DNA of 34,612 nt from Chloroflexota bacterium (lineage in GTDB: Bacteria > Chloroflexota > Anaerolineae > UBA1429). Made by a program: the position numbers and the translations under genes. The DNA lies in contig JAJFUJ010000045.1 of assembly GCA_021372475.1 (NCBI GenBank), positions 1 through 34,612 of the forward strand. The letters run 5' to 3'. The notes under the pieces were generated by a model, which was given only the letters and a program-made list of their open reading frames with translations, was not told where the DNA came from and did no database searches. Position 1 is the stretch's first letter. Each line of letters opens with the position of its first letter. This document shows positions 3,418 to 33,503 of this stretch, one piece after another.

Positions 3418-3894
3418 ATGACAGGCCGCGTAGTGGTCATTATGGGGTCAAAAGTTGACCTGGAAATCGCGCAAAAAGTCGCCGCCCAACTCGACCAATT
3501 TGGGGTGCCGTATACTTTGCGGGTAGCTTCGGCGCACAAAAGCGTGATGCATTTGATGGGGTTATTGAGAGACCTCGCCGAAAGCTCAGAGCCGGTGGTG
3601 CTGGTGACTATTGCCGGTCGTTCCAATGCCCTGAGCGGTATGGTTGATGCCAATACATCCTTTCCGGTGATTGCTTGTCCACCGCCCAGCACGGCTTTTG
3701 GCGGCGCGGATATCTTTTCCTCGCTGCGCATGCCGAGCGGTGTGGCGCCGCTGCTTGCCGCTGAGCCGGAAAATGCCGCTATCGCCGCCGTCAAGATTCT
3801 AGCGCTGCACGATGCGGCGCTGCGTGAAAAGGTTTCGCAGTTCCAGCAATCCATGACCGATGCGCTTGTGGCTGCGGATAGGAGCCTAGGGTGA
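3418..3894 (+). CDS. purE: Class II PurE: phosphoribosylaminoimidazole (AIR) carboxylase, CO2-dependent type
   Basis: A 158-residue PurE-fold protein. In place of the class I motifs (SDSDW/L, SAHRTP and GGAAHLPGM) it has GSKVDL at 11-16, SAHKS at 39-43 and AGRSNALSGM at 66-75, then a PVIACPPPSTAFGGADIFSSLRMPSGV-type stretch ending near residue 110. The SAHK and AGRSN forms are those of class II PurE, known from the animal PAICS carboxylase domain and some bacteria such as Treponema. Class II enzymes carboxylate AIR directly with CO2 and do not use N5-CAIR or PurK. No purK lies in the visible operon, which agrees. An AAGGAAGG ribosome binding site precedes the ATG. Its last bases overlap the purF GTG. 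Confidence 0.88.
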   Translation: MTGRVVVIMGSKVDLEIAQKVAAQLDQFGVPYTLRVASAHKSVMHLMGLLRDLAESSEPVVLVTIAGRSNALSGMVDANTSFPVIACPPPSTAFGGADIFSSLRMPSGVAPLLAAEPENAAIAAVKILALHDAALREKVSQFQQSMTDALVAADRSLG

Positions 3895-5345
3895 ACCAAG
3901 CATCCGAGGATATGCATAACACAAGTTCCACACGGCTCGATAGGCCTGAAGAGGCCTGTGGTATCTTTGGCATCTATGACCCCGGTGCCGAAGCGGCCAG
4001 GATCACCTTTTTTGCCTTGTATGCCCTGCAGCACCGCGGTCAGGAATCCGCTGGCATCGCCGTCTCGGACGGTCGCTCGATGAATCTCTATAAAGAGATG
4101 GGGCTTGTTTCACAGGTATTCAACGAGCAGAATCTTGCCCCGCTGAAAGGCCACATTGCCATCGGGCACGTGCGTTATTCCACGGCCGATTCATCGCGCC
4201 GGGTAAGTGCGGCTCCATTTTTACTCGAATCCGCCCTCGGGCCGGTCGCTATCGCGCACAACGGCAACCTGGTCAATGCCAGCGAACTGCGCCAGGAGCT
4301 TTTTGCACGCGGGGTAGGGCTGACAACCTCGAGCGACACGGAGACGCTGCTACAGATACTGGTGGGCGCACAAGGTGATAACTGGCTGGAGCGCATCCAG
4401 CACATGATGAGCAAAGCGCTGGGGGCTTACAGCCTGACGATCCTTACCCGTGATGCGCTCTATGCAGTGCGCGACCCATGGGGCTTCCGCCCGCTGTGCC
4501 TCGGCAGGCTCAACGGCGGTTGGGTGGTGGCTTCCGAGACATGCGCCCTGCAGACCATCGGCGCAATAGAGATCGAGGAAGTGAAACCAGGCATGATTGT
4601 CATCGCCGACCGCAATGGCTTGCGCCAGGTCCAGGGTGCACCTGCAGGCAAATCCAATTTATGTATCTTTGAGTATATCTATTTTGCCCGCCCCGACAGC
4701 ATCATCGACGGCCAGCTCATTCATGAGGTGCGCCAGGAGCTGGGCCGCCAGCTTGCCCGTGAACATCCTGTCGAGGCCGATATGGTGATGGGCGTGCCCG
4801 ATTCCGCGACCCCTGCGGCGATTGGCTATGCCCTGGAATCCGGCATCCCCTATACAGAGGGACTGATCAAGAACCGCTACATCGGGCGCACCTTTATCCA
4901 GCCCGACGATCGCCTGCGTAAAGCGGGGGTGGCGCTCAAATTCAACCCGCTCAACCGTATCCTCAAGGATAAACGCGTGGTCGTGGTGGATGATTCGATT
5001 GTGCGCGGCAATACCAGCCGCCCGATTGTTGACTTGTTGCGTCATGCCGGCGCCCGCGAGGTGCATATGCGCATCTCCTCCTCGCCGATCAAACACCCCT
5101 GCTTTATGGGCGTCGATATGGCCACCTATGACGAACTGATCGCCCACCACCTGTCGGTGGAAGAGATTCGTCAGAAAATCGGCGCTGATTCGTTGGGCTA
5201 CCTGAGCATCGAGGGGATGATTAATGCGGCCGCGCACCCTCTCGACCACTTCTGCGTAGCTTGCTTTAGTGGTGATTACCCTTTTGAACAAAAGGCCGGC
5301 GGGTTTGAAACCCAGGCGGTCTGTATGGCAGCTAGGGAGAATTGA
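3891..5345 (+). CDS. purF: Amidophosphoribosyltransferase (glutamine PRPP amidotransferase)
   Basis: A 484-residue enzyme of the first committed purine step, making phosphoribosylamine from PRPP and glutamine. The Ntn-glutaminase nucleophile is Cys23 in EACGIFGIYD, so a propeptide of about 22 residues (or 15 if translation begins at the in-frame ATG 3912) must be removed. The C-terminal PRTase domain has the PRPP loop VVVVDDSIVRGNTS. Cysteines in NLCIFEYIYF, HPCFMGVD and FCVACFSGDYP match the four [4Fe-4S] ligands of the Bacillus-type oxygen-sensitive enzyme. The GTG start overlaps the purE stop by four bases (GTGA), implying coupled translation. Confidence 0.95.
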   Translation: MNQASEDMHNTSSTRLDRPEEACGIFGIYDPGAEAARITFFALYALQHRGQESAGIAVSDGRSMNLYKEMGLVSQVFNEQNLAPLKGHIAIGHVRYSTADSSRRVSAAPFLLESALGPVAIAHNGNLVNASELRQELFARGVGLTTSSDTETLLQILVGAQGDNWLERIQHMMSKALGAYSLTILTRDALYAVRDPWGFRPLCLGRLNGGWVVASETCALQTIGAIEIEEVKPGMIVIADRNGLRQVQGAPAGKSNLCIFEYIYFARPDSIIDGQLIHEVRQELGRQLAREHPVEADMVMGVPDSATPAAIGYALESGIPYTEGLIKNRYIGRTFIQPDDRLRKAGVALKFNPLNRILKDKRVVVVDDSIVRGNTSRPIVDLLRHAGAREVHMRISSSPIKHPCFMGVDMATYDELIAHHLSVEEIRQKIGADSLGYLSIEGMINAAAHPLDHFCVACFSGDYPFEQKAGGFETQAVCMAAREN

Positions 5346-5346
5346 G

Positions 5347-6624
5347 ATGCGCGTACTCGTGGTCGGTTCGGGCGGCAGGGAACATACTTTGGCATGGGCG
5401 CTGCAGCGCTCCCCTGAGGTAGATGCCGTTTATGTGGCCCCCGGCAACGGTGGGACGCACGCTGTTGCCCAGAATGTAGCCATCCCTGCCGAGGATGTGC
5501 GTGCGCTGACAGAGTTCGCCACACACAACGCGATTGACCTGGTAGTTGTCGGCCCTGAGGCGCCCCTGGCTCTCGGCCTGGTGGATGTCCTGCAACGCGC
5601 AAAGGTGCCCGTCTTTGGCCCAACCGCTGCTGCGGCGCGCCTCGAGTCGTCCAAGGCTTTCAGCAAAGCCTTTATGGTTGAGAACAATATTCCTACTGCG
5701 GCTTATCGTAGTTTTACGGATTACCCTTCGGCCAGCGCCTATCTGGCCGGTCAGCACGCCCCCATCGTCATCAAAGCTTCGGGGTTAGCTGCCGGCAAAG
5801 GCGTTATCATTTGTCAGACGATGGCGGAGGCCGAAGCGGCTCTGCGCAGCGTGATGGTGGAGCGCGACTTCGGCGCTGCCGGCGATGAGGTAATTATCGA
5901 AGAATACCTCACCGGCCAGGAGGTCTCGGTTCTGGCCTTTTGCGACGGTAAAACTGCATCGCCAATGATTCTAGCGCAGGACCACAAGGCCGCCTACGAC
6001 GGCGACAAGGGGCCGAATACCGGCGGGATGGGCTGTTACGCTCCCGCGGCCGTAATGGATACCGCCCAGCAGCAGGCTGTTCTGGAGCAGGTGTTGCAGC
6101 CTGTGCTGCGCGGGATGGCTGCTCAGGGCACCCCGTATGTGGGTATCCTGTATGCCGGGTTGATGCTGACTCCGCACGGTTTTAAGGTGCTCGAGTTCAA
6201 CTGCCGTTTTGGCGATCCGGAAACGCAGGTGATTTTGCCCCTGCTCGAGACCAGCCTGGCTGAGGTGATGCTGGTTTGCCTGAATGGAACCCTGGATACC
6301 CTCACCCTGCGCTGGCGGCCTGGCGCCGCCGTGTGCGTGGTGCTGGCCGCCGGCGGCTATCCCGGCCATTACCGCAAGCACGATCTGATTAGCGGCTTGG
6401 ATTTTGCGGCGGCGCAGCCCGGCGTGTTGCTCTTCCATGCCGGCACGACCCGCGAGGACGGCGCCATCTATACTGCCGGGGGGCGCGTGCTCGGCGTGAC
6501 AGCCACAGCGCCGGATCTGCACACTGCCATTCACTCTGCCTATGCCGCCGCAGGTATGATTAGCTGGCCGGATATGCATTACCGCCGGGATATTGGCGCC
6601 AAGGGTTTACGCGGGGAGGCTTGA
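5347..6624 (+). CDS. purD: Phosphoribosylamine-glycine ligase (GAR synthetase)
   Basis: A 425-residue ATP-grasp enzyme that joins phosphoribosylamine and glycine. The N-terminal MRVLVVGSGGREHTLAWAL segment and the central ATP-grasp motif around EEYLTGQEVS and GPNTGGMGCYAPA are diagnostic. FNCRFGDPETQ near residue 290 carries the Mg-binding Glu and Asn residues. The frame is open 26 codons further upstream inside purF, but ATG 5347 is preferred. It lies one base after the purF stop, has AGGGAG just upstream, and starts exactly at the Rossmann-like strand as in homologues. Confidence 0.96.
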   Translation: MRVLVVGSGGREHTLAWALQRSPEVDAVYVAPGNGGTHAVAQNVAIPAEDVRALTEFATHNAIDLVVVGPEAPLALGLVDVLQRAKVPVFGPTAAAARLESSKAFSKAFMVENNIPTAAYRSFTDYPSASAYLAGQHAPIVIKASGLAAGKGVIICQTMAEAEAALRSVMVERDFGAAGDEVIIEEYLTGQEVSVLAFCDGKTASPMILAQDHKAAYDGDKGPNTGGMGCYAPAAVMDTAQQQAVLEQVLQPVLRGMAAQGTPYVGILYAGLMLTPHGFKVLEFNCRFGDPETQVILPLLETSLAEVMLVCLNGTLDTLTLRWRPGAAVCVVLAAGGYPGHYRKHDLISGLDFAAAQPGVLLFHAGTTREDGAIYTAGGRVLGVTATAPDLHTAIHSAYAAAGMISWPDMHYRRDIGAKGLRGEA

Positions 6625-6625
6625 T

Positions 6626-7654
6626 ATGACGACACGCGCCGATGCTTACCGCGCTGCCGGGATTAATATCGACGCCGGCAACCAGGCAGTGCAGTTGATG
6701 ACCAGCGCTGTGCGTTCTACTTACGGCCCTGAGGTGCTGATGGGGATCGGCGCTTTTGGCGGTTTATTCGATGCAGGCAAGCTCAAGGCAATGCGTGAGC
6801 CGGTGCTGGTCGCTTCGACCGATGGCGTGGGCACCAAAACAATGGTTGCTTGCGAATTATGCAGTTATAACACCATCGGAATGGATATCGTCAATCACTG
6901 CGTCAATGATATCCTGGTGCAGGGAGCCGAGCCGCTTTTTTTTATGGATTATATCGCCATGCCTGCCCTCGACCCGCAGTTGGTAGCCACAGTCGTCACC
7001 GGCGCCGCCGAAGCCTGCCGCGCTGCCGGCTGCGCCCTCCTCGGCGGCGAGACGGCCGAGATGCCGGGCGTCTATGCGCCGGGAGAACTCGACCTCGTGG
7101 GTACGATCGTGGGCTGCGTCGAACGTGATGAAATGATCGACGGCACCAAAATCACCCCAGGCGATATGCTGCTGGGGCTGTCTTCCAGCGGACCGCACAC
7201 CAACGGCTTCAGCCTGATTCGGCGGATATTCCCAGCCGAGACCTTTGGCATGTACACCGAGCTGCTCGGTCTGCCGCTGGGCGAAGCGCTGGTGCAGCCG
7301 CATCGCTCCTATCTGCCCGTCGTGCGTGCCATCCGCGAAAAGGTGCATATCAAGGGGTTGGCGCATATCACCGGCGGAGGGTTCATCGACAACGTGCCGC
7401 GCATTCTGCCGGAGGGCACGGCCGCGGTCATCGACCGCCGTTCCTGGCAAGTGCCGGTCCTCTTCCAACTGATCGAACGCGAGGGGCATATCGACCATGA
7501 TGAAATGTACCGCGTGTTCAACATGGGCATCGGTATGGTGGTAGTCGTAGCGCCTGAGGACGCGGATGCCGTCATCGCGGCCAGCGAAGGGGAAGCGCGG
7601 ATCATCGGCCACGTGGTTGCCCAGCAGGACGGCGCACGGGTTGTGATGCAATGA
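6626..7654 (+). CDS. purM: Phosphoribosylformylglycinamidine cyclo-ligase (AIR synthetase)
   Basis: A 342-residue PurM-fold enzyme that closes the imidazole ring of AIR using ATP. Recognised by STDGVGTKTMVA in the N-terminal half, the metal-binding MDIVNHCVNDILVQGAEPLFF segment, and LLGGETAEMPGVY. ATG 6626 is one base past the purD stop and has GGGGAGG at 6613-6619. An in-frame alternative 11 codons upstream lacks such a site. The stop overlaps the purN ATG (ATGA). Confidence 0.96.
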   Translation: MTTRADAYRAAGINIDAGNQAVQLMTSAVRSTYGPEVLMGIGAFGGLFDAGKLKAMREPVLVASTDGVGTKTMVACELCSYNTIGMDIVNHCVNDILVQGAEPLFFMDYIAMPALDPQLVATVVTGAAEACRAAGCALLGGETAEMPGVYAPGELDLVGTIVGCVERDEMIDGTKITPGDMLLGLSSSGPHTNGFSLIRRIFPAETFGMYTELLGLPLGEALVQPHRSYLPVVRAIREKVHIKGLAHITGGGFIDNVPRILPEGTAAVIDRRSWQVPVLFQLIEREGHIDHDEMYRVFNMGIGMVVVVAPEDADAVIAASEGEARIIGHVVAQQDGARVVMQ

Positions 7655-8262
7655 ACCGGCTGGCGGTACTCGCTTCCGGCAACGGCACCAACCTGCAGGC
7701 AGTGCTCGATGCCTGTGTCGACGGTCGGTTGCCTGCTGCCCAGGTAGTGGCAGTAGTCGTCAATCACCGCGACGCATACGCGCTGGAGCGCGCTCAAAGA
7801 AGTAATATTCCAACGCTTTACCACCCATTCTACCCCTATCGGCAGGATGGGCGTTCCCGTAGCCTGTATGATGCCGATTTAGCTGCTCTGCTTGAGCCCT
7901 ATAAACCGGACTTGATCATACTCGCCGGCTGGATGCACATCCTGAGTATGGCTTTCCTGAAATATTATCCTGGGCGCGTATTGAACATCCATCCGGCGCT
8001 GCCCGGCACATTTCCCGGCATGCACGCCATCGAGCGCGCCTATGAGGCTTTCCAACGCGGCGAGATCGACCATACCGGCGTGATGGTGCACCTGGCGCCC
8101 GATGAAGGGGTGGATGTTGGCCCGCTAGTGCTACAACGCGAGGTGCCGATATATCCGGCCGATTCACTGGAAGACCTGGAAGCGCGTATGCACGAGACCG
8201 AGCACGAGCTCTATATAGAGGCCATTGCCAAGGTCCTAGCGCAACTCGTGCCAAATAATTAG
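7651..8262 (+). CDS. purN: Phosphoribosylglycinamide formyltransferase (10-formyl-THF dependent)
   Basis: A 203-residue GAR transformylase that converts GAR to FGAR. The phosphate loop LASGNGTNLQ (residues 7-16) is present. The catalytic Asn112 and His114 are in NIHPALPGTFPG, and Asp151 is in APDEGVDVGP. It overlaps the purM stop by ATGA and is the last gene of the operon. A hairpin follows its stop codon. No purH is visible here, so the last two steps of IMP synthesis must be encoded elsewhere. Confidence 0.95.
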   Translation: MNRLAVLASGNGTNLQAVLDACVDGRLPAAQVVAVVVNHRDAYALERAQRSNIPTLYHPFYPYRQDGRSRSLYDADLAALLEPYKPDLIILAGWMHILSMAFLKYYPGRVLNIHPALPGTFPGMHAIERAYEAFQRGEIDHTGVMVHLAPDEGVDVGPLVLQREVPIYPADSLEDLEARMHETEHELYIEAIAKVLAQLVPNN

Positions 8263-8287
8263 AGGGCAGCCTTTACAAACTGCCCTC
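8262..8287. terminator. Hairpin between convergent purN and GH38 genes
   Basis: An 8-bp perfect stem, GAGGGCAG (8262-8269) with CTGCCCTC (8280-8287), has a 10-base loop. It begins at the last base of the purN stop and lies between two convergent genes. There is no clear T-run on either strand, so it may be a weak or bidirectional terminator. Confidence 0.5.
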
Positions 8288-8300
8288 GGATATTAAGCTG

Positions 8301-11300
8301 CTAGAACCGTATGCGCAGGCTGCGCACCTGATAGGGCATAACGGTTAAATCGAGTGCATCCCCTTCACAGGGCAGGGCCGCCCCGTTTTCTTCCAGCAGA
8401 TTGCATTCCCAGGCGGCCTTCAGCGGCCTGGCGAAGGTCAAGCGCACCTTGCCGCGCTGATTATAAGCTTCGTACAGGCGTACGATGAATCCGTCGCCGT
8501 CCTCGGCCGCTTTGATGGTATCGATGATGACGTGCTCCGCGCTGCACGCTGCCAGACTTTTGGTCGGGGGCAGGGCTGCGCCGGGCGTGCCGCACCCGGC
8601 AGGCACACCTATGGCCACCGGCGGGTTGTTCAGCAGGGCGGCTTCCTGCACGGTGCCGCAGCGCCAATCACCCTGGTGCGGCAGGAGGGCATAGGTAAAG
8701 ACGTGCTTGCCCTGGTCAGCATCAGGATCGGGCGAGGTCGCCGACTTGATGAGGGTCAGGCGCAGCACGTTATCCTTGGTATCATGCCCGTATTTGCAAT
8801 CGTTCAACAGGCTGACGCCGTAATCTCCCTCGGAAAGATCTGACCAACGATGGCCGCACACCTCGAAGCGGGCATAATCCCAGCTTGTGTTCCAATGCGT
8901 CGGCCGTTCGATGGCGCCGAACTGGATTTCGTAGGTTGCCTGGGTGGCGTGCACCGCCACCGGGAAGGCGGTTTTGAGCAGGATATGATGCTCGTGCCAA
9001 TCGGCCTCGGTGCAGAAATCGATGCGCGCAGTGTGTTGGTAGGCATAGATGCGCTGCACGATGCGCGAACTGCGCCAGCTCCGCACCAGTTCAAGGCAGC
9101 AGCGCAACGGACCGGCCTCCACCACGCGCGCGCTCTCGAGGCTGTTAAGCTCCCACGACTTGTCCAGGTAGAAAATGTCGATATCCCAGGCATCGTTGCC
9201 CAGCGGTTTATCCTCGAAAGCCTGCAGCAGGTTGGCGCGCTGGCCTTCCGCCAACACCTCACGTCCGGCGCGCTTGTCGTAGCACGAGGTAAACATCCCA
9301 TCCGCTCCCAACTGCACCTTGAGGAAAGGCGTCTCGATGCAGTCCGTGCTTGCACTCAACCCAGCAGGAGTGGGAGCTACACTGCTTGCCTGCCAACGCA
9401 GCAGCTTATAGCCGTAGGAAGGCACGCTGCTCACCAATGCCAGGTATCTGCCCTCTCCCACTTGTTGCATAGCGAGTGTCGCGCCGTTTGCAGCATCCAC
9501 CAGCGCAGGCTGCTGCAGCTCCCGCGGCGCCTGCACCTCGATCAACTCGCTTATGCCCCAGCCGAGGGTGTTGAAAACCACCACGCTCTCGGCGTTAGCA
9601 GCGCCTGCCACGCGCCGGGCGATGGTCTGTGCGGCGTTTCCGCGCGCCTCTGCGCCGATCTGCGCGATTTTGGCATAATCCCGTGCGCAATCCTCGTAAA
9701 CGGCATGAATCGATGAGCCGGGCAGGATATCGTGGAACTGGTTGACCAGGATGAGCTCCCAGCCCTTATGCAGCGCTTCGGCAGGATAAGCCGCCCCGAG
9801 CAGGCTCGCGGCGCTGGCCAGTGCCTCGGCCTGGTGATACAGTACCTCGCTTTTGCGGTTGGCACGCTTGTTCTGCGCCTGGCTGGTCAGGGTGCCGCGG
9901 TGATATTCCAGATACAACTCGCCGTTCCAGACGGGCACGCGCTGCCCTTGTACCTTGGCCTCCAGCTCGTGGAAAAAGCTGTTGGCGGTGCCCAGCACTA
10001 CCTGTGGCGCAGCGGGGTGATTCGCCAGACGCACGCCCTGCTCAAGCATATCGCTGGTTGGACCACCGCCGCCGTCGCCGAAACCGTAACTCATCAGCAC
10101 CTCGTCGGTGAACTCTTTGCCTGTATTGGCGGCCCAGGTGCCCTGCACCTCCTGAGGACGCAAATAGCCGTTATAGGTATAAAACCAGTTGTTGGAAGGC
10201 GTGGTGGCAAAATGGGTCAGCACCTGCGTGCCGTCGATTCCCTGCCAGTAAAAAGTGTCGTAGGGGAAGCGATTATACTGGCTCCAACTGATCTTGGTGG
10301 TCATAAAGTAACGCAGGCCGGCCTGCACAATAAGCTGCGGCAGCGCGCCACTGTAGCCGAAGACATCCGGCAGCCAGAGGATGTCGCCGTCCTGGCCGAA
10401 CAGCTCGCGGAAAAGCCGGCGCCCATAAAGGAACTGGCGCACCAGCGATTCACCGCCGGTGACATTCGTATCCATCTCGACCCAGGTGCCGCCGTTGACT
10501 TCCCAGCGCCCTTCCCTGACGCGCCGCTGAATCTGGGTAAGCAGGTCGGGATAGTCCTGCTGGATATACTGGTAAAGCTGAGCCTGGCTTGAAATAAAAT
10601 GATAGGTGGGGAAGTGTTCCATCAGCCTGAGCGCGGTGGAAAAGGTGCGCGCCGTCTTTTGGCGGGTTTGCGCTAAAGACCACAGCCAGGCCACATCAAT
10701 GTGTGCATGCCCGATGGCGCGCACCTTCTCATGGTTGGGCGCCAGCTTCTCGGCAACAAGCGACTCAGCAAGGGTTCGTCTGGCCTCCCCTACGGATTCA
10801 TAAAACGCGTCGCCTATCGGCTCGCGTAAATCCAGCACCTGGAATGCCTTTTCGAGCACGTTGAGCAGCCTGATACGGGTGTAATCCGCCTCGGGCAGCG
10901 TCTTGGCTACTTCAAGCGCCACCAGCGCATCGTAATAGAATCCTTTGGTCTCGGCATCTATCTGGATCAGCTCGGCCTGCCAGAAACGCTCAGCGGCATA
11001 GTTGCGTCCGCGCCAGGCTTCCAGGGCCACCTGGATAGTGCTTTGAGCACAGGTGCCCTCATCGAAGGTCAGCAATTCGTGCCAGCGGTCGATTCCCTGC
11101 CGTTCGCGGCCGTTCACATATGCCAATGCTTCTGGATATTCGCTGCGATTGAGCTCGCCCAGGCGCAAGCGCAGCGCCGTTTGACTGCCCTGCATCTCCT
11201 GCGGTACCTGAAGCGTGCAGGCGAACCAGGCCCAGGTTTGTTTATCATCCGCCCCCCACCACTGGCCGATAGTAAATGGCTGCCAGCGCGGGTCATCTGT

Positions 11301-27100: not shown

Positions 27101-27934
27101 TTATCTTGCTGTATCGCGGCCGTATATCCACCAATAAACCGTGCCGACCAGGCCGGCCCCGCCGATGATGTTGCCGATAGTAACGGGCACCAGGTTATTC
27201 CATAGAAACTGGCCGATCGTCACATTGGCACCGTTCAGCATCCCCAGCGGAATGAAAAACATGTTGGCCACAGAGTGCTCCGACCCAAGGGCCACAAAAG
27301 CCATAATCGGGAACCAGATTGCCAGGATTTTACCAGCGATATCATCAGCCGCCGTCGCCATCCACACAGCCAAACACACCAGCCAGTTGCACAGGATACC
27401 GCGCAGGAGCGCCTGTCCCCAGGGAATTTTGATCTTGGCTTCGGCGATGCTTTTGGCAGCCAGTCCGAGCTTGTACGGCAACGAGGCTGTGGCTAAGTCT
27501 GCCGGCGCCGGGCCGCTGGCATTAATCAAACCAGAAAGGTAAGCCATAAAAAACGCGACAAACAGGGCGCCGATAAAGTTGCCGATATACACGACGCCCC
27601 AATTGCGGAATAGGTTCTTCCATTTGGCGGCACCCGAAAGGCAAGCCGGCATCAGTACGCCCGTATTGCCGGTGAAAAGTTCAGCGCCTGCGATGACTAC
27701 GAGCATAAGTCCTACAGGGAAGACGGCAGCGAATAACAGCTTGCCCAATCCTGGATTAGCCGTGCTGACGGCGGGGCTGCCGCTGCCCACAGTAATGGCC
27801 AGCATTCCGCCAATGGCGATGAATGCTCCGGCCAGAAAGCCTAATATCAACTGTTTGGGAACGGATAAACTGGCCTTGGTGCAGCCTGCTGCGCTGGCGG
27901 CTTCCACGATCGCCTTGGGTGATTTGAACGGCAT
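27101..27934 (-). CDS. Formate/nitrite transporter (FNT) family channel
   Basis: A 277-residue FNT channel with six membrane helices. GAELFTGNT (83-91) is the helix-break signature, and GSEHSVANMFFIP (217-229) contains the central His220, equivalent to FocA His209. These proteins carry formate, nitrite, hydrosulfide or lactate, and the substrate cannot be fixed from these motifs. The open frame extends 108 codons upstream with a non-family sequence. ATG 27934 has GAGGAA just before it and matches the family's N-terminus. It has its own promoter, although it follows the signalling operon on the same strand. Confidence 0.93.
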   Translation of the reverse strand: MPFKSPKAIVEAASAAGCTKASLSVPKQLILGFLAGAFIAIGGMLAITVGSGSPAVSTANPGLGKLLFAAVFPVGLMLVVIAGAELFTGNTGVLMPACLSGAAKWKNLFRNWGVVYIGNFIGALFVAFFMAYLSGLINASGPAPADLATASLPYKLGLAAKSIAEAKIKIPWGQALLRGILCNWLVCLAVWMATAADDIAGKILAIWFPIMAFVALGSEHSVANMFFIPLGMLNGANVTIGQFLWNNLVPVTIGNIIGGAGLVGTVYWWIYGRDTAR

Positions 27935-28088: not shown

Positions 28089-29459
28089 CTACTCGCTTCG
28101 CGGCAGTTCAAAGTTGAACGTACTGCCCTTCCCTTTGACCGATTCGACCCAGATGCGCCCGCTATACCGCGTGATAATCTCTTTAACGATCGACAATCCC
28201 AGGCCGGTGCCTTGTGCAGAGGTTTGTTTGGCGGTCTCGGTTCGGTAAAATGGCTCAAATATCATCGCTTGTTCTTCGGGCGTCATCCCGATGCCGGTAT
28301 CGCGCACACTGCCGCGCACCTGGCCGTCGTCGGCTGCCACGGTGATATCGATTTTACCCCCAGCCGGCGTGTATTTGATGGCGTTGGATACCAGGTTCAT
28401 CCAGACCTGCTTGATATGCTCGCTTTCCGCGCGCACTAGCAGCCCTTTGGGTGCCTGAATAGTTATCCCGAGCTGTTTGGCTTGAGCGCGCACTTGCATC
28501 AGGTCCAGCACATCCATCAGGACGCTGGAAGCGTCCACCGTGGTGACAGTGGCAGGCGCCTTGGGTTCCTGGGCATGCACTAAATCAAGGAGGTCGGCGA
28601 TAAGGTCCAACTGGTCGCGTGCGCGTAGTTCTGCCCGCGTAATGATTTCGTTGAACCGTTCGGCAGGCACATAGCCATCCAAAATCAGGCGCAAATAGCT
28701 CTGGATTGCGGCAACCGGCGCACGCAGCTCGTGAGTGACCAGGCGGATGAACATAGCCCGTGAATGGTCCAGTTCCTTCAGACGCTCGTTTAGCTTTGCC
28801 AACTCGCCGGCGCGCAACTCACAGGCGAGGTCGGCATCATAGAGCTGGCGTTCGCCTTCGCGCAGGCGCGAGATAATGCCGGAAATAAAGAACGCCACAA
28901 TGAGGTTCAGGCTAATCAATACCAAAGAGATTGATACGACGTGCATCGGTTCAGTGTAGCGGCCCGGCAGGCGATATCCGGCCAAGTTGTAGTGGGGAAT
29001 CACCCCGCCGGCTTCGCATAGGAGCAAAGCCACCCACACTATGCTGGCTGCCGTCGCATAGATAAGGCTGGCGCGCTGCGTTGTCAGCATACTGGCGGTT
29101 AATACCAGCAACACATAATAGGCAGCAAAAGGATTCTCCAACCCGCCGGTAAAGTGCATTATCATGGTAAAGGCGACGAGATCGGCAGCCAACTGCATAT
29201 AAATGATCAAAGCATGGGTCTCGCGCGGCGCGTTGCGGCTGGTTAAGCGGCGGGTAAGAATCCAAAAGAGACCATTATAGCAAAAGATGACGGCCAAAGT
29301 AGCCCATAGTGCGTTCAAAGGCAGGCTGACGTGCAGCACATAGTGCACGATGAGCACCAATCCCAAGGCAAAGCCAGTAGCCGGCCAGCGAACCGTTACC
29401 AGCCAGCGGCTGCGCTCCCCCAATTCACGATCGAGCGGGATGCGTAATATCTCTGTCAC
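28089..29459 (-). CDS. Membrane sensor histidine kinase with RegB-like GGxxNPF motif
   Basis: A 456-residue sensor kinase. Six predicted helices fill residues 25-198. Between helices 3 and 4 is FTGGLENPF (103-111), the GGxxNPF heptapeptide that in RegB/PrrB binds quinone. A short linker leads to the HisKA domain with THELRAP (His243). The HATPase domain follows with NLVSNAIKY (355-363), DTGIGM (387-392) and GTGLGLSIVKEI (417-428). GGAGGAG precedes the ATG. It is the last gene of the seven-gene operon that also encodes NuoEF and three receivers. A redox or quinone signal is a reasonable inference; the RegB redox Cys beside the H-box is not seen. Confidence 0.9.
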   Translation of the reverse strand: MTEILRIPLDRELGERSRWLVTVRWPATGFALGLVLIVHYVLHVSLPLNALWATLAVIFCYNGLFWILTRRLTSRNAPRETHALIIYMQLAADLVAFTMIMHFTGGLENPFAAYYVLLVLTASMLTTQRASLIYATAASIVWVALLLCEAGGVIPHYNLAGYRLPGRYTEPMHVVSISLVLISLNLIVAFFISGIISRLREGERQLYDADLACELRAGELAKLNERLKELDHSRAMFIRLVTHELRAPVAAIQSYLRLILDGYVPAERFNEIITRAELRARDQLDLIADLLDLVHAQEPKAPATVTTVDASSVLMDVLDLMQVRAQAKQLGITIQAPKGLLVRAESEHIKQVWMNLVSNAIKYTPAGGKIDITVAADDGQVRGSVRDTGIGMTPEEQAMIFEPFYRTETAKQTSAQGTGLGLSIVKEIITRYSGRIWVESVKGKGSTFNFELPRSE

Positions 29460-29472
29460 CGCTCCTCCTTAT

Positions 29473-29955
29473 TTAGGGCAGACCAAAGACATCCCGCCAG
29501 GCAGCGATCGCTGCCGGGGCTTCCTGGCCGCCGATAACGCAGGTGATAGTGGAGATGGAGGTGCTGACTGCCAGGATGTTGATACCGGCGTTCGCCAGGG
29601 CGCCGAACGCGTTGCCGGCGATGCCAGGGCGTTCGCGAAAGTCAGGCCCGTATATCGAAATTAGCGCAACCTCGTTGTTAACAGTTACCTTACGCGCATT
29701 AAGCCCCTGAGCCACACGCTGCATCGCTACCAGGACGCGAGCACAGTCGCTTTCATCCACGCAGAACTGCACATGGGACTCGTTATTCAAGTCGATGCTC
29801 TGCACAATGAACTGGGCGTTCAGGTGTTCGCGCCCCAACGCGTTGAATATAGCGCTCACGAGCCCGGGCCGGTCGGGGGTCGACATGACCCCGACAAGGC
29901 ACAAATGAGGTATATGGATTATGCCGCCCGCTGTGGCTCGTTTTTCTCCTGCCAT
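29473..29955 (-). CDS. Twin-ACT-domain protein resembling the aspartokinase regulatory region
   Basis: A 160-residue soluble protein made of two ACT domains. The first (about 18-85) has STPDRPGLVSAIFNALGREH and IVQSIDL, like the effector-binding ACT of aspartate kinase. The second (about 95-158) has GPDFRERPGIAGNAFGAL and STSISTITCVI, like the aspartokinase TS-eIsIsCvi segment. The kinase domain is missing. Such ACT pairs bind amino acids such as lysine or threonine. A GGAGG site precedes the ATG. It lies 13 bases from the histidine kinase and 39 bases from a receiver gene, so it probably feeds an amino-acid signal into this circuit. No partner is shown. Confidence 0.85.
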   Translation of the reverse strand: MAGEKRATAGGIIHIPHLCLVGVMSTPDRPGLVSAIFNALGREHLNAQFIVQSIDLNNESHVQFCVDESDCARVLVAMQRVAQGLNARKVTVNNEVALISIYGPDFRERPGIAGNAFGALANAGINILAVSTSISTITCVIGGQEAPAAIAAWRDVFGLP

Positions 29956-29994: not shown

Positions 29995-30375
29995 TTATCC
30001 TTTGGCCAACAACCGCGATACACGTTTAAGCAGATCGTCCGGGGCGATTGGCTTGGAGACGAACTCATCAATATGGATATACTCATCGGTCGGGAACAGC
30101 GCGGCGTAATCGCTGTTGGCTATCGATGTGACCATCAGGATGGGAATCCTGGCCTGCTCGGGAACGCTTGCCATCTGCTGGCTAACATACAGCCCGTCCA
30201 GTACTGTTTTCATGATTACGTCAAGTATCACCAGATCGGGTCGGCCATCATGCACTTTACGCAAGCCCACGTCGCCGTCGGCCGCGCTTTCCACCCGGTG
30301 CCCCGCTCTTTCCAGGACCATGCGCGTCGCCTCAACAAAATCGGGGTCGTCATCAACCACTAGAATTGTAGCCAT
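29995..30375 (-). CDS. Single-domain response regulator (receiver only), copy 1
   Basis: A 126-residue CheY-like receiver. The acidic pocket is VVDDDPDF (6-13), the phosphoacceptor is Asp52 in VILDVIM, the switch Thr is in MVTS, and Lys108 is in SKPIAP. There is no output domain. It shares PTDEYIHIDEFVSKP with the receiver fused to the AsnC-type regulator at the head of the operon, so the two are recent relatives. GAGGAGG precedes the ATG. It lies between nuoF and the ACT gene and is a likely target of the histidine kinase. Confidence 0.92.
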   Translation of the reverse strand: MATILVVDDDPDFVEATRMVLERAGHRVESAADGDVGLRKVHDGRPDLVILDVIMKTVLDGLYVSQQMASVPEQARIPILMVTSIANSDYAALFPTDEYIHIDEFVSKPIAPDDLLKRVSRLLAKG

Positions 30376-30389
30376 GATGTCCTCCTCGC

Positions 30390-31682
30390 TTACGCAATTA
30401 GAACCGAGTGCTGCGGGTTCTCTTTCACCGCGCAGTAACCATCCCTGATATGCTGCTCGAACTCGTCATTGAACAACCTTAATCCACTGCGTATTGGCGC
30501 GACCAGGGCTTCGCCAAAGGGGCACAAGGTGCGCCCTGCGATTCCGTCACATAACGACTGCAGATTGTCCAAGTCGCCCGGCTTGCCATGGCCGGCCTCG
30601 ACGTGTTCGAGAATGTCCAGCGCGCGCTGCGAACCGACACGGCAGGGAGTGCACTTGCCGCATGACTCGTGGCCGAAGAAGCGCGTGGCACGCCTGACAA
30701 CGTCCACCATGCAGGTGCGTTCGTTCATCACGATGACTGCGCCGGTGCCCAGCGCGGAACCCGCGGCCGGCAGCGATTCAAAATCCATGCGCACATCGAG
30801 CTGTTCGCCGGTCAGAAAGGGGGTCGAGGCGCCGCCGGGGATGACGGCTTTGATGCGGTGGCTGCCCGGCACGCCGCCGGCATAATCCTCGATAAGCTCC
30901 CGCAAGGTAATGCCGAGGGGCGCTTCATACACGCCGCGCTGGTACACGTGCCCGCTGACACAGAATATCTTGGGACCGGTGCTCTTCTCTGTGCCGATGG
31001 TGCTGTACCATTCCGCGCCATGGTTGACAATGTGAGGGATATTCGCGAGCGTTTCCACATTGTGCACCAGAGTTGGCTGCTGCCAGAAACCGCGCTCCGT
31101 CGGGAAAGGCGGCTTGATGCGCGGCTCGCCGCGGAACCCGCTGAGCGATTCGATCATCGCCGTTTCCTCACCGCAAATATAGGCGCCGGCGCCACGGTGC
31201 ACCGTCATGTCAACGCTAAAGCTACTGCCGAGGATGTTGCGTCCGAGATAATGGTGCTCGTAAGCATCGCTTATCGCTTTGTTCCAGCGTTTGAATCCCA
31301 GAAAGAACTCGCCTCGGATATACACATAGATGCGCGATGCGCCGACCGCGTAAGCAGTGATAATTGCACCCTCGATGATCTGGTGGGGGTCGCATTCCAC
31401 CAGCACGCGGTCTTTGAAGGTGCCCGGCTCACCCTCGTCGGTGTTGACGCATAATACCTTGGGCATCTCTTCCTTGGGCATAAAGCTCCACTTGAGCCCG
31501 GTCGGGAACCCCGCGCCGCCTCGGCCGCGCAGCTTGGAACGTTTGACCAGGTCGATCAATTCCTCGGGCTTATAGTCCCTGAGCGCCTTTTCGAGCGCCT
31601 GATAACCGCCGTTAGCTTGATATACACCGAGCGTCTCGCTGCGGGGCAACTTGACGCGCTTTAGTAGAATCGGGTCAAACAT
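30390..31682 (-). CDS. nuoF: NuoF-like NADH-binding flavoprotein subunit
   Basis: A 430-residue subunit of NADH:acceptor oxidoreductases. LRGRGGAGFPTGLKW (51-65) is the NADH/FMN loop, and GAGAYICGEETAM (164-176) is the second FMN/NADH motif. Cys341, Cys344 and Cys347 in ESCGKCTPC with Cys387 in TLCPFGEA bind the N3 [4Fe-4S] cluster. The length matches NuoF of complex I and not HydB, which has extra N- and C-terminal iron-sulfur domains. A GGGGAGG site precedes the ATG. nuoE lies two bases upstream, but no nuoG, hydrogenase or formate dehydrogenase subunit is in the window, so the electron acceptor is unknown. Confidence 0.94.
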   Translation of the reverse strand: MFDPILLKRVKLPRSETLGVYQANGGYQALEKALRDYKPEELIDLVKRSKLRGRGGAGFPTGLKWSFMPKEEMPKVLCVNTDEGEPGTFKDRVLVECDPHQIIEGAIITAYAVGASRIYVYIRGEFFLGFKRWNKAISDAYEHHYLGRNILGSSFSVDMTVHRGAGAYICGEETAMIESLSGFRGEPRIKPPFPTERGFWQQPTLVHNVETLANIPHIVNHGAEWYSTIGTEKSTGPKIFCVSGHVYQRGVYEAPLGITLRELIEDYAGGVPGSHRIKAVIPGGASTPFLTGEQLDVRMDFESLPAAGSALGTGAVIVMNERTCMVDVVRRATRFFGHESCGKCTPCRVGSQRALDILEHVEAGHGKPGDLDNLQSLCDGIAGRTLCPFGEALVAPIRSGLRLFNDEFEQHIRDGYCAVKENPQHSVLIA

Positions 31683-31684
31683 AT

Positions 31685-32128
31685 TTAACCTCCCCGCAAT
31701 TCATCCAGCAACATATCGACGCGATCGGCCGTCAGGTTTTCGTAGAGCGTATCGTTGACGCGCATGGCCGGCGAAGAGCTGCACGAGGCCAGGCACTGCA
31801 CCATCTGCAAAGTAAAGAGACCGTCGGTTGTTGTCTCGCCCGGGCATATGTGTAACTTATTTTGAATATAAGCTGCCAGGTTCTCGGCGCCATCGGCCAG
31901 GTAACACGACAACCCCTCACAAACCTGCAGCACATAGCGGCCGGCCGGCTGTGTACGGAACATTGAGTAAAATGTGGCGGTCTCGTACACCTGAGCCGGG
32001 CTGATGCCCAACCGCGCACTCACCCGCTCCAGGGCATCGGGGGTGAGCGAGCCATACTGCTCCTGGGCGATATACAAGGCCGTCAGCAGCATCGCGCGTT
32101 TCGCAGGATCGGGCAGTACCTTGGTCAT
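31685..32128 (-). CDS. nuoE: NuoE-like [2Fe-2S] thioredoxin-fold subunit
   Basis: A 147-residue subunit. The N-terminal helical part leads to the thioredoxin-like domain with Cys70-x4-Cys75 (VCEGLSC) and Cys112-x3-Cys116 (QCLASC), the four ligands of the N1a [2Fe-2S] cluster. ETATFYSMF (49-57) is the usual NuoE helix. AAGGAGG precedes the ATG. It is two bases ahead of nuoF, so the pair forms a minimal diaphorase. It sits between two receiver genes inside a regulatory operon, which is not the usual complex I context. Confidence 0.93.
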   Translation of the reverse strand: MTKVLPDPAKRAMLLTALYIAQEQYGSLTPDALERVSARLGISPAQVYETATFYSMFRTQPAGRYVLQVCEGLSCYLADGAENLAAYIQNKLHICPGETTTDGLFTLQMVQCLASCSSSPAMRVNDTLYENLTADRVDMLLDELRGG

Positions 32129-32142
32129 ACCATATACCTCCT

Positions 32143-32535
32143 TTAGTCAAACCGCTTGACCATCTCGCTGACGCGCTTGAGCAATTCCGACGGCGCAATC
32201 GGCTTACTCATAAAAGCTACTGAACCGCCGTCCTCAGACCTGCCCAGCAGGTCGTCGTCCTCTGTGGATACGATCGCCGAAACCATCAGAATCGGGATAT
32301 GCGTCAGGCGTTCATCGGTCTTGATCTCCAGGTCGATAGAAAGGCCGTTCATGGAGCGGGCCAGCATCACATCGGCAATGACGAGGTCGGGCGGCGTGCG
32401 GTGCAGCGCTCGCAGCCCCTCTACCACGGTCTGCGCTGTCTCGACACGGTATCCACCAGCCTCGAGCACGATGCGCACATAACTGTTAAAATCCTGATCA
32501 TCATCGATCACTAGAATGCGTTTCGGGTACATCAT
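32143..32535 (-). CDS. Single-domain response regulator (receiver only), copy 2
   Basis: A 130-residue CheY-like receiver with the pocket VIDDDQDF (9-16), phosphoacceptor Asp55 in VIADVML and Lys111 in MSKPIAP. The loop before the Lys is longer and acidic (STEDDDLLGRSEDGG), unlike the other two receivers in the operon. No output domain. The first two codons are both ATG (32535 and 32532); the second is better spaced from AGGGA. It is 14 bases upstream of nuoE. Confidence 0.9.
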   Translation of the reverse strand: MMYPKRILVIDDDQDFNSYVRIVLEAGGYRVETAQTVVEGLRALHRTPPDLVIADVMLARSMNGLSIDLEIKTDERLTHIPILMVSAIVSTEDDDLLGRSEDGGSVAFMSKPIAPSELLKRVSEMVKRFD

Positions 32536-32547
32536 CGTCCCTGGCCT

Positions 32548-33378
32548 TTACCGGCGCCTGAGCAGCCGCTTGACCTCGGAGGTAAGCTGCACGGGCGAAA
32601 CCGGCTTGGAAAGAAAACTATCGACCCTGATGTCCTCATCAGTAGGCAGCATGCCGGCATACTCGGTCGAGGTAATCGAACTGACTACCAAAACCGGCAG
32701 GTTGCGCAGCGTTGGCTCATCCCTCACGCGCCGCAGTGCATCCCAGCCGTCCAGAACGCCTTCCATGATGATATCCAGTATCACGAGGTCAGGCGGCTCG
32801 GTCAGCATCATCTGAAAGGCAACCTGACCGGTAGCAGCGCTTTGAGTAGTGAATCCCTCGGCCTCCAATACCATACGGCATATTTCGACAAAGTCGGGGT
32901 CATCATCGACGATAAGAATCATAGGCGCCTGGGGTTTAGGTAATGCCCAGGTAGAGCGCTCTTTGACGATTTGCGGCACGTGGCAGGTTTTGCTGGCGAT
33001 AACCCCGGGCAGCAGCGTTAATTTTTCATTGATGAACTGAAGCAGATGCTGGTTGGAGGAAAAGGCCGCCTCAACCATGATGTCATAACCGCCGGTCAAT
33101 AGGTAAACACTCAGCACTTCGGGCATGTCGCGGAGCTGGCGTACCGCCTCCTGAACGCTGGCGAGGGTCATCGTCAACAGAATGATGACCCGGTCGTTAT
33201 ATCCAGCGAGGCTCGGTTCGGCCTGGCCGATGACCTTGAAGCCGCCTTCCGCCAATAGATGCTCGATGTGCTTGCGGATTGTGCCTTCTGAGACGCCCAG
33301 CACTTTGCCAATCTCGACGTTGCTGCGTCGGCCGTCCTGTTGTAATAACTCGATGATGCGATAATCAATTTGGTCCAT
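32548..33378 (-). CDS. Lrp/AsnC-type regulator fused to a response-regulator receiver domain
   Basis: A 276-residue fusion. Residues 1-50 are an AsnC winged helix (MDQIDYRIIELLQQDGRRSN and VLGVSEGTIRKHIEHL). Residues 62-140 are a RAM/AsnC ligand domain with VYLLTGGYDIMVEA and the KTCHVPQIVKE ending. A linker of about 13 residues leads to a complete receiver domain (153-276) with VDDDPDF, phosphoacceptor Asp202 in VILDIIM and Lys258 in LSKP. The join is in one open frame with no stop. GGGGA lies just before ATG 33378; the upstream open frame is AT-rich promoter. It is the first gene of the operon and probably binds the three repeats in its own promoter. Confidence 0.88.
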   Translation of the reverse strand: MDQIDYRIIELLQQDGRRSNVEIGKVLGVSEGTIRKHIEHLLAEGGFKVIGQAEPSLAGYNDRVIILLTMTLASVQEAVRQLRDMPEVLSVYLLTGGYDIMVEAAFSSNQHLLQFINEKLTLLPGVIASKTCHVPQIVKERSTWALPKPQAPMILIVDDDPDFVEICRMVLEAEGFTTQSAATGQVAFQMMLTEPPDLVILDIIMEGVLDGWDALRRVRDEPTLRNLPVLVVSSITSTEYAGMLPTDEDIRVDSFLSKPVSPVQLTSEVKRLLRRR

Positions 33379-33415: not shown

Positions 33416-33444
33416 TATATAGCACATAATACGAAATTCGTCAA
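33416..33444 (-). promoter_or_regulatory. Promoter of the AsnC-receiver/NuoEF/kinase operon
   Basis: On the minus strand: TTGACG (complement of 33439-33444), a 17-base spacer and TATATA (complement of 33416-33421). The predicted transcript starts about 30 bases before the ATG at 33378. Operator copy 1 lies in the spacer and on the -35 box. Confidence 0.65.
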
Positions 33445-33503
33445 TAAATATTTAATATATAACGTTATTCGTATATTATATATAGATATAAGACGAATAT
33501 CGT
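33431..33503. promoter_or_regulatory. Three ACGA-N3-TCGT operators at exact 31-bp spacing
   Basis: Copy 1 is ACGAAATTCGT (33431-33441), copy 2 is ACGTTATTCGT (33462-33472, one mismatch), and copy 3 is ACGAATATCGT (33493-33503). Starts differ by 31 and 31 bases, close to three helical turns, so all face one side of the DNA. The spacers are almost pure A/T, hence bendable. Phased sites in bent DNA at the gene's own promoter are typical of Lrp/AsnC autoregulators. Copy 1 covers the -35 end, which suggests repression. Confidence 0.75.

Follow-up and report, generated by a model that had tools for sequence, protein, structure and literature searches.

The window, by which we mean the whole 34,612-nucleotide stretch of Chloroflexota DNA analyzed here, carries on one strand a gene cluster in the order AsnC-REC, REC, NuoE, NuoF, REC, double-ACT, histidine kinase, and FocA (Table 1). 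The first gene of this cluster encodes a Lrp/AsnC regulator joined in frame to a receiver domain. The initial annotation had placed an AsnC winged helix, a RAM domain, and a complete receiver in a single open frame without stating the strand, and the domain analysis agrees with it: the HTH_AsnC-type (E-value 1.8e-13), AsnC_trans_reg (8.3e-15), and Response_reg (4.3e-20) families were all matched above the Pfam gathering cut-offs, and the frame lies on the minus strand with zero internal stops; the plus strand contains several stops in the same region. According to the Pfam assignments, the domains follow each other as HTH-RAM-REC, and the receiver is thus C-terminal to the DNA-binding part, in the reversed order that the annotation had pointed out. 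The histidine kinase that it had assigned to the same operon was also recovered, on the minus strand. An AlphaFold model of the fusion, obtained with 23 family members as input, had a mean pLDDT of 89 and a pTM of 0.66; both halves are predicted to be well folded, and the pTM value leaves the placement of the AsnC half relative to the receiver unsure. Foldseek comparison of the model with the PDB related one half to PH0140, PH1519, and E. coli AsnC and the other half to receivers, and none of the PDB chains among the matches listed spanned both halves.

Table 1. Genes, protein domains, and predicted regulatory sites of the AsnC-REC operon in the window.
Feature	Coordinates	Strand	Basis and details
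Predicted operator site 1, ACGATATTCGT	33493..33503	-	Motif
Predicted operator site 2, ACGAATAACGT, with a single mismatch; 31 bp from both neighboring sites	33462..33472	-	Motif
Predicted operator site 3, ACGAATTTCGT; overlaps the -35 box	33431..33441	-	Motif, alignment
Predicted promoter, TTGACG (33444-33439), 17 bp, TATATA (33421-33416)	33416..33444	-	Layout aligns in 21 of 26 loci
AsnC-REC fusion gene	32548..33378	-	276 aa; ATG at 33378; stop codon 32550-32548
HTH_AsnC-type winged helix, residues 1-45	33244..33378	-	PF13404 (residues 1-41), PF13412 (residues 1-45)
RAM (AsnC_trans_reg) domain, residues 70-132; TG-x-YD loop at 95-99	32983..33171	-	PF01037
Linker, residues 141-152; Trp144 and Pro147 invariant	32923..32958	-	Conservation
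Receiver domain, residues 154-269	32572..32919	-	PF00072
Predicted phospho-acceptor Asp202 codon	32773..32775	-	Invariant in all fused, upstream, and downstream receivers
Conserved Lys258 codon	32605..32607	-	Invariant
Stand-alone receiver, of the type of the relatives' second upstream receiver	32143..32535	-	PF00072; tree
NuoE-like 2Fe-2S subunit; four Cys ligands retained	31685..32128	-	TIGR01958 above cut-off, PF01257
NuoF-like NADH-binding subunit; GRGGAGFPTG and ESCGKCTPCR retained	30390..31682	-	TIGR01959 above cut-off
Stand-alone receiver, in the sister clade of the fused receivers	29995..30375	-	PF00072; tree
Free-standing protein with two ACT domains, similar to the regulatory end of aspartokinase	29473..29955	-	Profile matches
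Membrane histidine kinase (6TM_PilS, HisKA with HELRAP, HATPase_c)	28089..29459	-	Pfam
FocA-like formate/nitrite channel, after the kinase	27101..27934	-	PF01226 (E 7e-89); TIGR00790 above cut-off

Homologues that always occur as two separate proteins would have spoken against the initial annotation; instead, the AsnC-REC fusion was identified, complete or nearly so, in at least 28 distinct forms, nearly all of them in Anaerolineae and one in another class. Within the Anaerolineae, the fusion was present in 32 of the 396 sampled genomes and in 24 of the 222 genera, and a phylum-wide sample of 400 genomes contained it in the host and one more genome only. The search outside the Chloroflexota comprised plasmids and a peptide-pattern scan of 84,980 species genomes, which detects close relatives only and returned 23 fusion loci, every one of them from the Chloroflexota. 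The one full-length plasmid match examined, in Burkholderia stagnalis, was rejected, as a stop separates its AsnC gene from the gene of a distinct response regulator. All three Pfam families were matched by each of the 23 members of the full-length alignment. Asp202 and Lys258, the two receiver residues named in the annotation, and likewise Asp158 and Asp159, showed no variation among the 28 distinct sequences or in the 23-row alignment, where Ser234 was present in 22 of the 23 fused receivers; the linker residues Trp144 and Pro147 were invariant across the family as well. Because independent genomes yielded the same in-frame fusion in 28 or more distinct sequences, we exclude an assembly or frameshift artefact that fused two neighboring genes, a vanishingly improbable explanation in favor of which there is nothing but the draft state of the host genome assembly (250 contigs).

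Phylogenetic analysis of 106 receivers from these loci, in a tree that was built on few columns and is not trusted in its finer branching, placed the fused receivers in one clade (SH-aLRT 96), the sister of which is the stand-alone receiver that their operon encodes after nuoF (96 for the joint clade). Since the fused receivers form one clade next to the post-NuoF receiver, the fusion probably arose once, from a duplicated receiver of the operon. The alpha-1 helix, which usually decides the kinase pairing of receivers, is nearly identical in the fused and post-nuoF receivers (in the window, DDDPDFVEICRMVLE against DDDPDFVEATRMVLE), and this similarity favors the same kinase for both.

In most loci with enough sequence, the relatives of the window operon have the order AsnC-REC, REC, REC, NuoE, NuoF, REC, 2xACT, HK; compared to them, the window operon has one upstream receiver fewer and extends into focA. 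Where the sequence is long enough, most fusion loci retain the operon with a same-strand kinase; other loci end at a contig edge. Four loci (L039, L042, L047, and L050) contain the fusion without a same-strand operon kinase and have other histidine kinases nearby on the opposite strand; two of these (L042 and L047) have a rearranged operon with kinases of a different type. The double-ACT protein sits between a receiver and the kinase in every complete operon. The solved chains closest to the window NuoF were those of complex I Nqo1/NuoF, HoxF, and HydB. A role of NuoE and NuoF as complex I subunits was rejected for the host, the genome of which (98% complete) has no PF00346 match for NuoD, and the window NuoEF pair thus probably serves a soluble enzyme. 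With its cofactor motifs, the NuoE-NuoF pair resembles the FdsGB, HydB, and HoxEF diaphorase modules of NAD-dependent formate dehydrogenases and bidirectional hydrogenases, but it differs from these modules in that its operon also encodes receivers, a kinase, and a double-ACT protein. The clusters of relatives include a formate dehydrogenase (FDH) alpha subunit, as in the FDH diaphorase systems, whereas the host FDH is encoded elsewhere in the genome. No DNA-binding output other than AsnC-REC was recognised in the operon, which is best read as a redox/formate two-component system with several receivers and with AsnC-REC as its one recognised route to DNA.

The REC-NuoE-NuoF-REC-ACT(-HK) core was also found without the fusion in further Anaerolineae (L051-L054, L060, L072, and others), where it forms a recurrent signaling/redox cluster that often adjoins FDH alpha and has no recognised DNA-binding regulator. 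In the six loci listed, the FDH alpha subunit is encoded within the cluster, and FocA is sometimes present there; FocA adjoins FDH in many relatives. FDH was encoded in 13 of 21 genomes with the fusion and in 27 of 39 without it, and it was rejected as an obligatory partner since this co-occurrence is not enriched. FocA was in moderate excess (13 of 21 versus 14 of 39 genomes). Some fusion genomes contain neither FDH nor FocA, and formate is therefore not the sole possible partner. Based on the FocA gene in the window and the FDH-bearing clusters of relatives, formate is the likeliest metabolic context of the window operon, although neither a proven nor a universal one. One locus (L067:9134-10381, plus strand) encodes a FocA-like channel in frame with a C-terminal receiver (PF01226, residues 15-278; PF00072, residues 297-413), followed by a histidine kinase. 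This transporter may be controlled directly by phosphorylation, and, as an independent case, it hints that receivers of this group serve as switches attachable to other proteins.

The region upstream of the fusion gene contains a predicted array of operator sites with the consensus ACGAAnnTCGT. In the 260 bases upstream of the fusion gene at 26 loci, 21 exact sites were found versus 0.04 expected from Markov-resampled sequences, and 32 sites versus 0.9 expected when one mismatch was allowed, figures that are to be read with an overlap between the motif-defining and test loci and with a resampling scheme that ignores shared ancestry. Among the loci added after the motif had been defined, L156 is a more independent case than L154, which is closely related to L035. 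A TTGAC-anchored alignment of 21 loci revealed the same plan with flanks that are not conserved: half or full sites occur one step upstream, and often another one lies one step downstream of the -10 box. In all fetched DNA, pairs of near-exact sites were spaced by 31 bp (12 pairs), 32 bp (1 pair), or 62 bp (2 pairs), and 15 of the 15 pairs lie upstream of AsnC genes, against six scattered singletons at other distances. The host genome contains 17 exact occurrences of the motif and the 31-bp tandem array only once, at the fusion promoter. As a reversed control pattern was as frequent as the single sites, we claim neither a wider regulon nor any further target in the host. Six additional matches to the promoter pattern in fusion genomes look like background. 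The array was absent before the fusion-less version of the operon (11 loci, with one chance-level match), and four loci (L042, L047, L024, and L021) have the fusion but not the operator. Sites two or three helical turns apart are typical of the Lrp family (PMC2995911), and separations of 27-29 bp were interpreted as three turns for BarR (PMC10201364); the fusion, with sites predicted by sequence only, resembles these Lrp-like proteins in having several helically phased sites at its own promoter.

A similar promoter plan was found for AsnC relatives that have no receiver domain. Two sites with a 31-bp spacing cover the promoter of the relative in L111, and this promoter plan is common to the REC-less genes of L111, located beside ATP sulfurylase, and L109, located beside NiFe hydrogenase and Hdr-like genes. 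Since these relatives share the layout, the operator most likely belongs to the Lrp half of the fusion and predates the fusion event. Stand-alone AsnC relatives with the fusion-type operator plan were observed in L111/L115 and L109/L114, and control of energy metabolism by this AsnC branch may be more widespread in the Chloroflexota. In L048/L116, a divergent operon for NuoE, a HydB-like NuoF, and a formate-dehydrogenase-like subunit lies opposite the fusion, with a predicted operator-promoter on both sides. With a site in each promoter, this divergent operon is one case of a likely metabolic target.

As a response regulator, AsnC-REC has its domains in reversed order and an output of a new class. 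The acidic pair, the phospho-acceptor Asp, the Ser/Thr and Lys residues, and an output in the same protein are all present, and the fusion shares with the OmpR/PhoB, NarL/FixJ, and NtrC classes the combination of a receiver with a DNA-binding output and a kinase in the same operon. In contrast to these classes, in which the receiver is usually N-terminal, the output comes first and the receiver last, and the Lrp/AsnC output brings its own sensory and oligomerization domain. The Trans_reg_C, GerE, and Sigma54/Fis outputs were absent from the Pfam matches of the 23 members, which comprised HTH_AsnC/RAM and generic HTH only outside the receiver. The fungal Skn7 protein likewise has an N-terminal DNA-binding domain and a C-terminal receiver, but it is eukaryotic, and its HSF-type DNA-binding domain is unrelated to the output of AsnC-REC. 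The HTH_AsnC and RAM fold is common to the fusion and the Lrp/AsnC regulators PH0140, PH1519/FL11, E. coli AsnC/Lrp, Ss-LrpB, and BarR; however, that family is one-component and ends after the RAM domain, whereas the fusion adds a C-terminal receiver with the full phospho-acceptor set. As judged by its domains, the fusion contains a full Lrp/AsnC regulator rather than being an ordinary one and represents a branch that has gained a further domain. Neither an AsnC-REC response regulator nor the REC-NuoEF-REC-ACT-HK system was found described in the literature, which was covered in part. The nearest case is that of the archaeal NitrOD1-REC proteins, in which NitrOD1 was described as a possible RAM variant (PMC5847659), while the fusion has a complete HTH and RAM, a predicted operator, and a distribution in the Chloroflexota.

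We propose, with a probability of approximately 60%, that AsnC-REC operates as a phosphorylation-gated autoregulatory Lrp nucleoprotein switch at the operon head, addressed by the operon kinase or a relay, in an NAD(H)-linked formate/H2 context. The protein would act as a response regulator whose output is an entire Lrp/AsnC regulator (HTH and RAM) followed by the receiver. Asp202 would be phosphorylated by the membrane histidine kinase of the operon, or via a relay through the free receivers, and this phosphorylation would alter the side-by-side association of RAM-paired dimers. The initial annotation had likewise suggested that ligand-dependent oligomerization could answer to the operon kinase, a suggestion with which the joint retention of kinase and fusion and the descent of the fused receiver from an operon receiver are compatible. 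The dimers would occupy the ACGAAnnTCGT sites every 31 bp, that is, every three helical turns on the same DNA face, with one of the sites over the -35 box. Such same-face spacing across the promoter suggests that the array acts as a cooperative autoregulatory switch, probably a repressing one that phosphorylation relieves or remodels, and a RAM ligand may tune the same Lrp assembly. As the operon combines the NuoE-NuoF diaphorase with receivers, a double-ACT protein, and, in the window, FocA, the switch would probably govern the NAD(H)-linked metabolism of formate (or H2). A broader proposal, in which a new class of response regulators couples a phosphorylation-controlled Lrp array to a NuoE-NuoF diaphorase from which the kinase and free receivers would learn the NAD(H)/formate status, is tentative and considered unlikely.

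The receiver might instead be a protein-interaction or dimerization module that is no longer driven by a kinase, leaving the AsnC half as an ordinary ligand-sensing autoregulator. The presence of the same kind of operator and promoter in the REC-less relatives indicates that the predicted binding is independent of the receiver, the RAM domain of the fusion keeps the TG-x-YD loop, and its PDB relative PH0140 was solved with isoleucine. However, receivers that mediate contacts only often lose their phosphorylation-site residues, whereas Asp158, Asp159, Asp202, Ser234, and Lys258 are retained in essentially every fused receiver, and the kinase stays in the operon; we thus consider an interaction module unlikely. 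It is quite improbable that the receiver serves as a tether between the DNA-binding protein and the NuoEF/REC/ACT/HK proteins, so that sequestration by the enzyme or kinase, with redox-titrated release, would control transcription. The several free receivers of an operon with no other recognised DNA-binding output are consistent with tethering, and the FocA-receiver protein of L067 suggests that receivers of the group can be attached to non-DNA targets, but receivers usually bind kinases transiently, and such a complex is hypothetical.

The identity of the phosphodonor can be questioned in a similar way. The four fusions that have opposite-strand histidine kinases nearby instead of a same-strand operon kinase (L039, L042, L047, and L050) would accord with another kinase mainly phosphorylating the fusion while the operon kinase serves the free receivers. 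This assignment is very improbable in view of the same kinase being encoded downstream in the majority of sufficiently long fusion loci, and of the fused receiver being a close paralogue of an operon receiver with the same alpha-1 helix.

Under the preferred reading of a phosphorylation-gated switch, a one-component nutrient regulator would have been turned into a two-component output by a receiver added at its far end, with DNA sites that apparently pre-existed, and a single Lrp assembly would respond to both a phosphate and a small molecule. The fusion would supply a transcriptional output to the recurrent REC-NuoEF-REC-ACT-HK system, which is formate-linked in several Chloroflexota. The REC-less relatives in G073/G138 allow a direct before/after comparison with the fusions, and the reading makes concrete predictions as to the array of sites bound, the kinase involved, and the one residue that accepts the phosphate. 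Beyond what the initial annotation had described, the analysis added the array of predicted operators, the surrounding NuoEF/REC/ACT/FocA genes, the one-time origin of the fusion, and the fusion-less kinase-REC-NuoEF core.

Elsewhere in the host genome, contig C20 (L105, about 3560-9113) encodes a Rex-like regulator, a fusion of the NuoF C-terminal part with GltD, and an FDH alpha subunit broken by one in-frame TGA, which is probably a selenocysteine codon; the operator is absent at this FDH cluster. The other NuoF of the host genome is encoded on contig C4 (L106, 4466-11298), within an NAD(P)-linked hydrogenase cluster composed of NuoE, a NuoF-GltD fusion, and HoxU-like and HoxY-like proteins, which also includes a small stand-alone HATPase protein.
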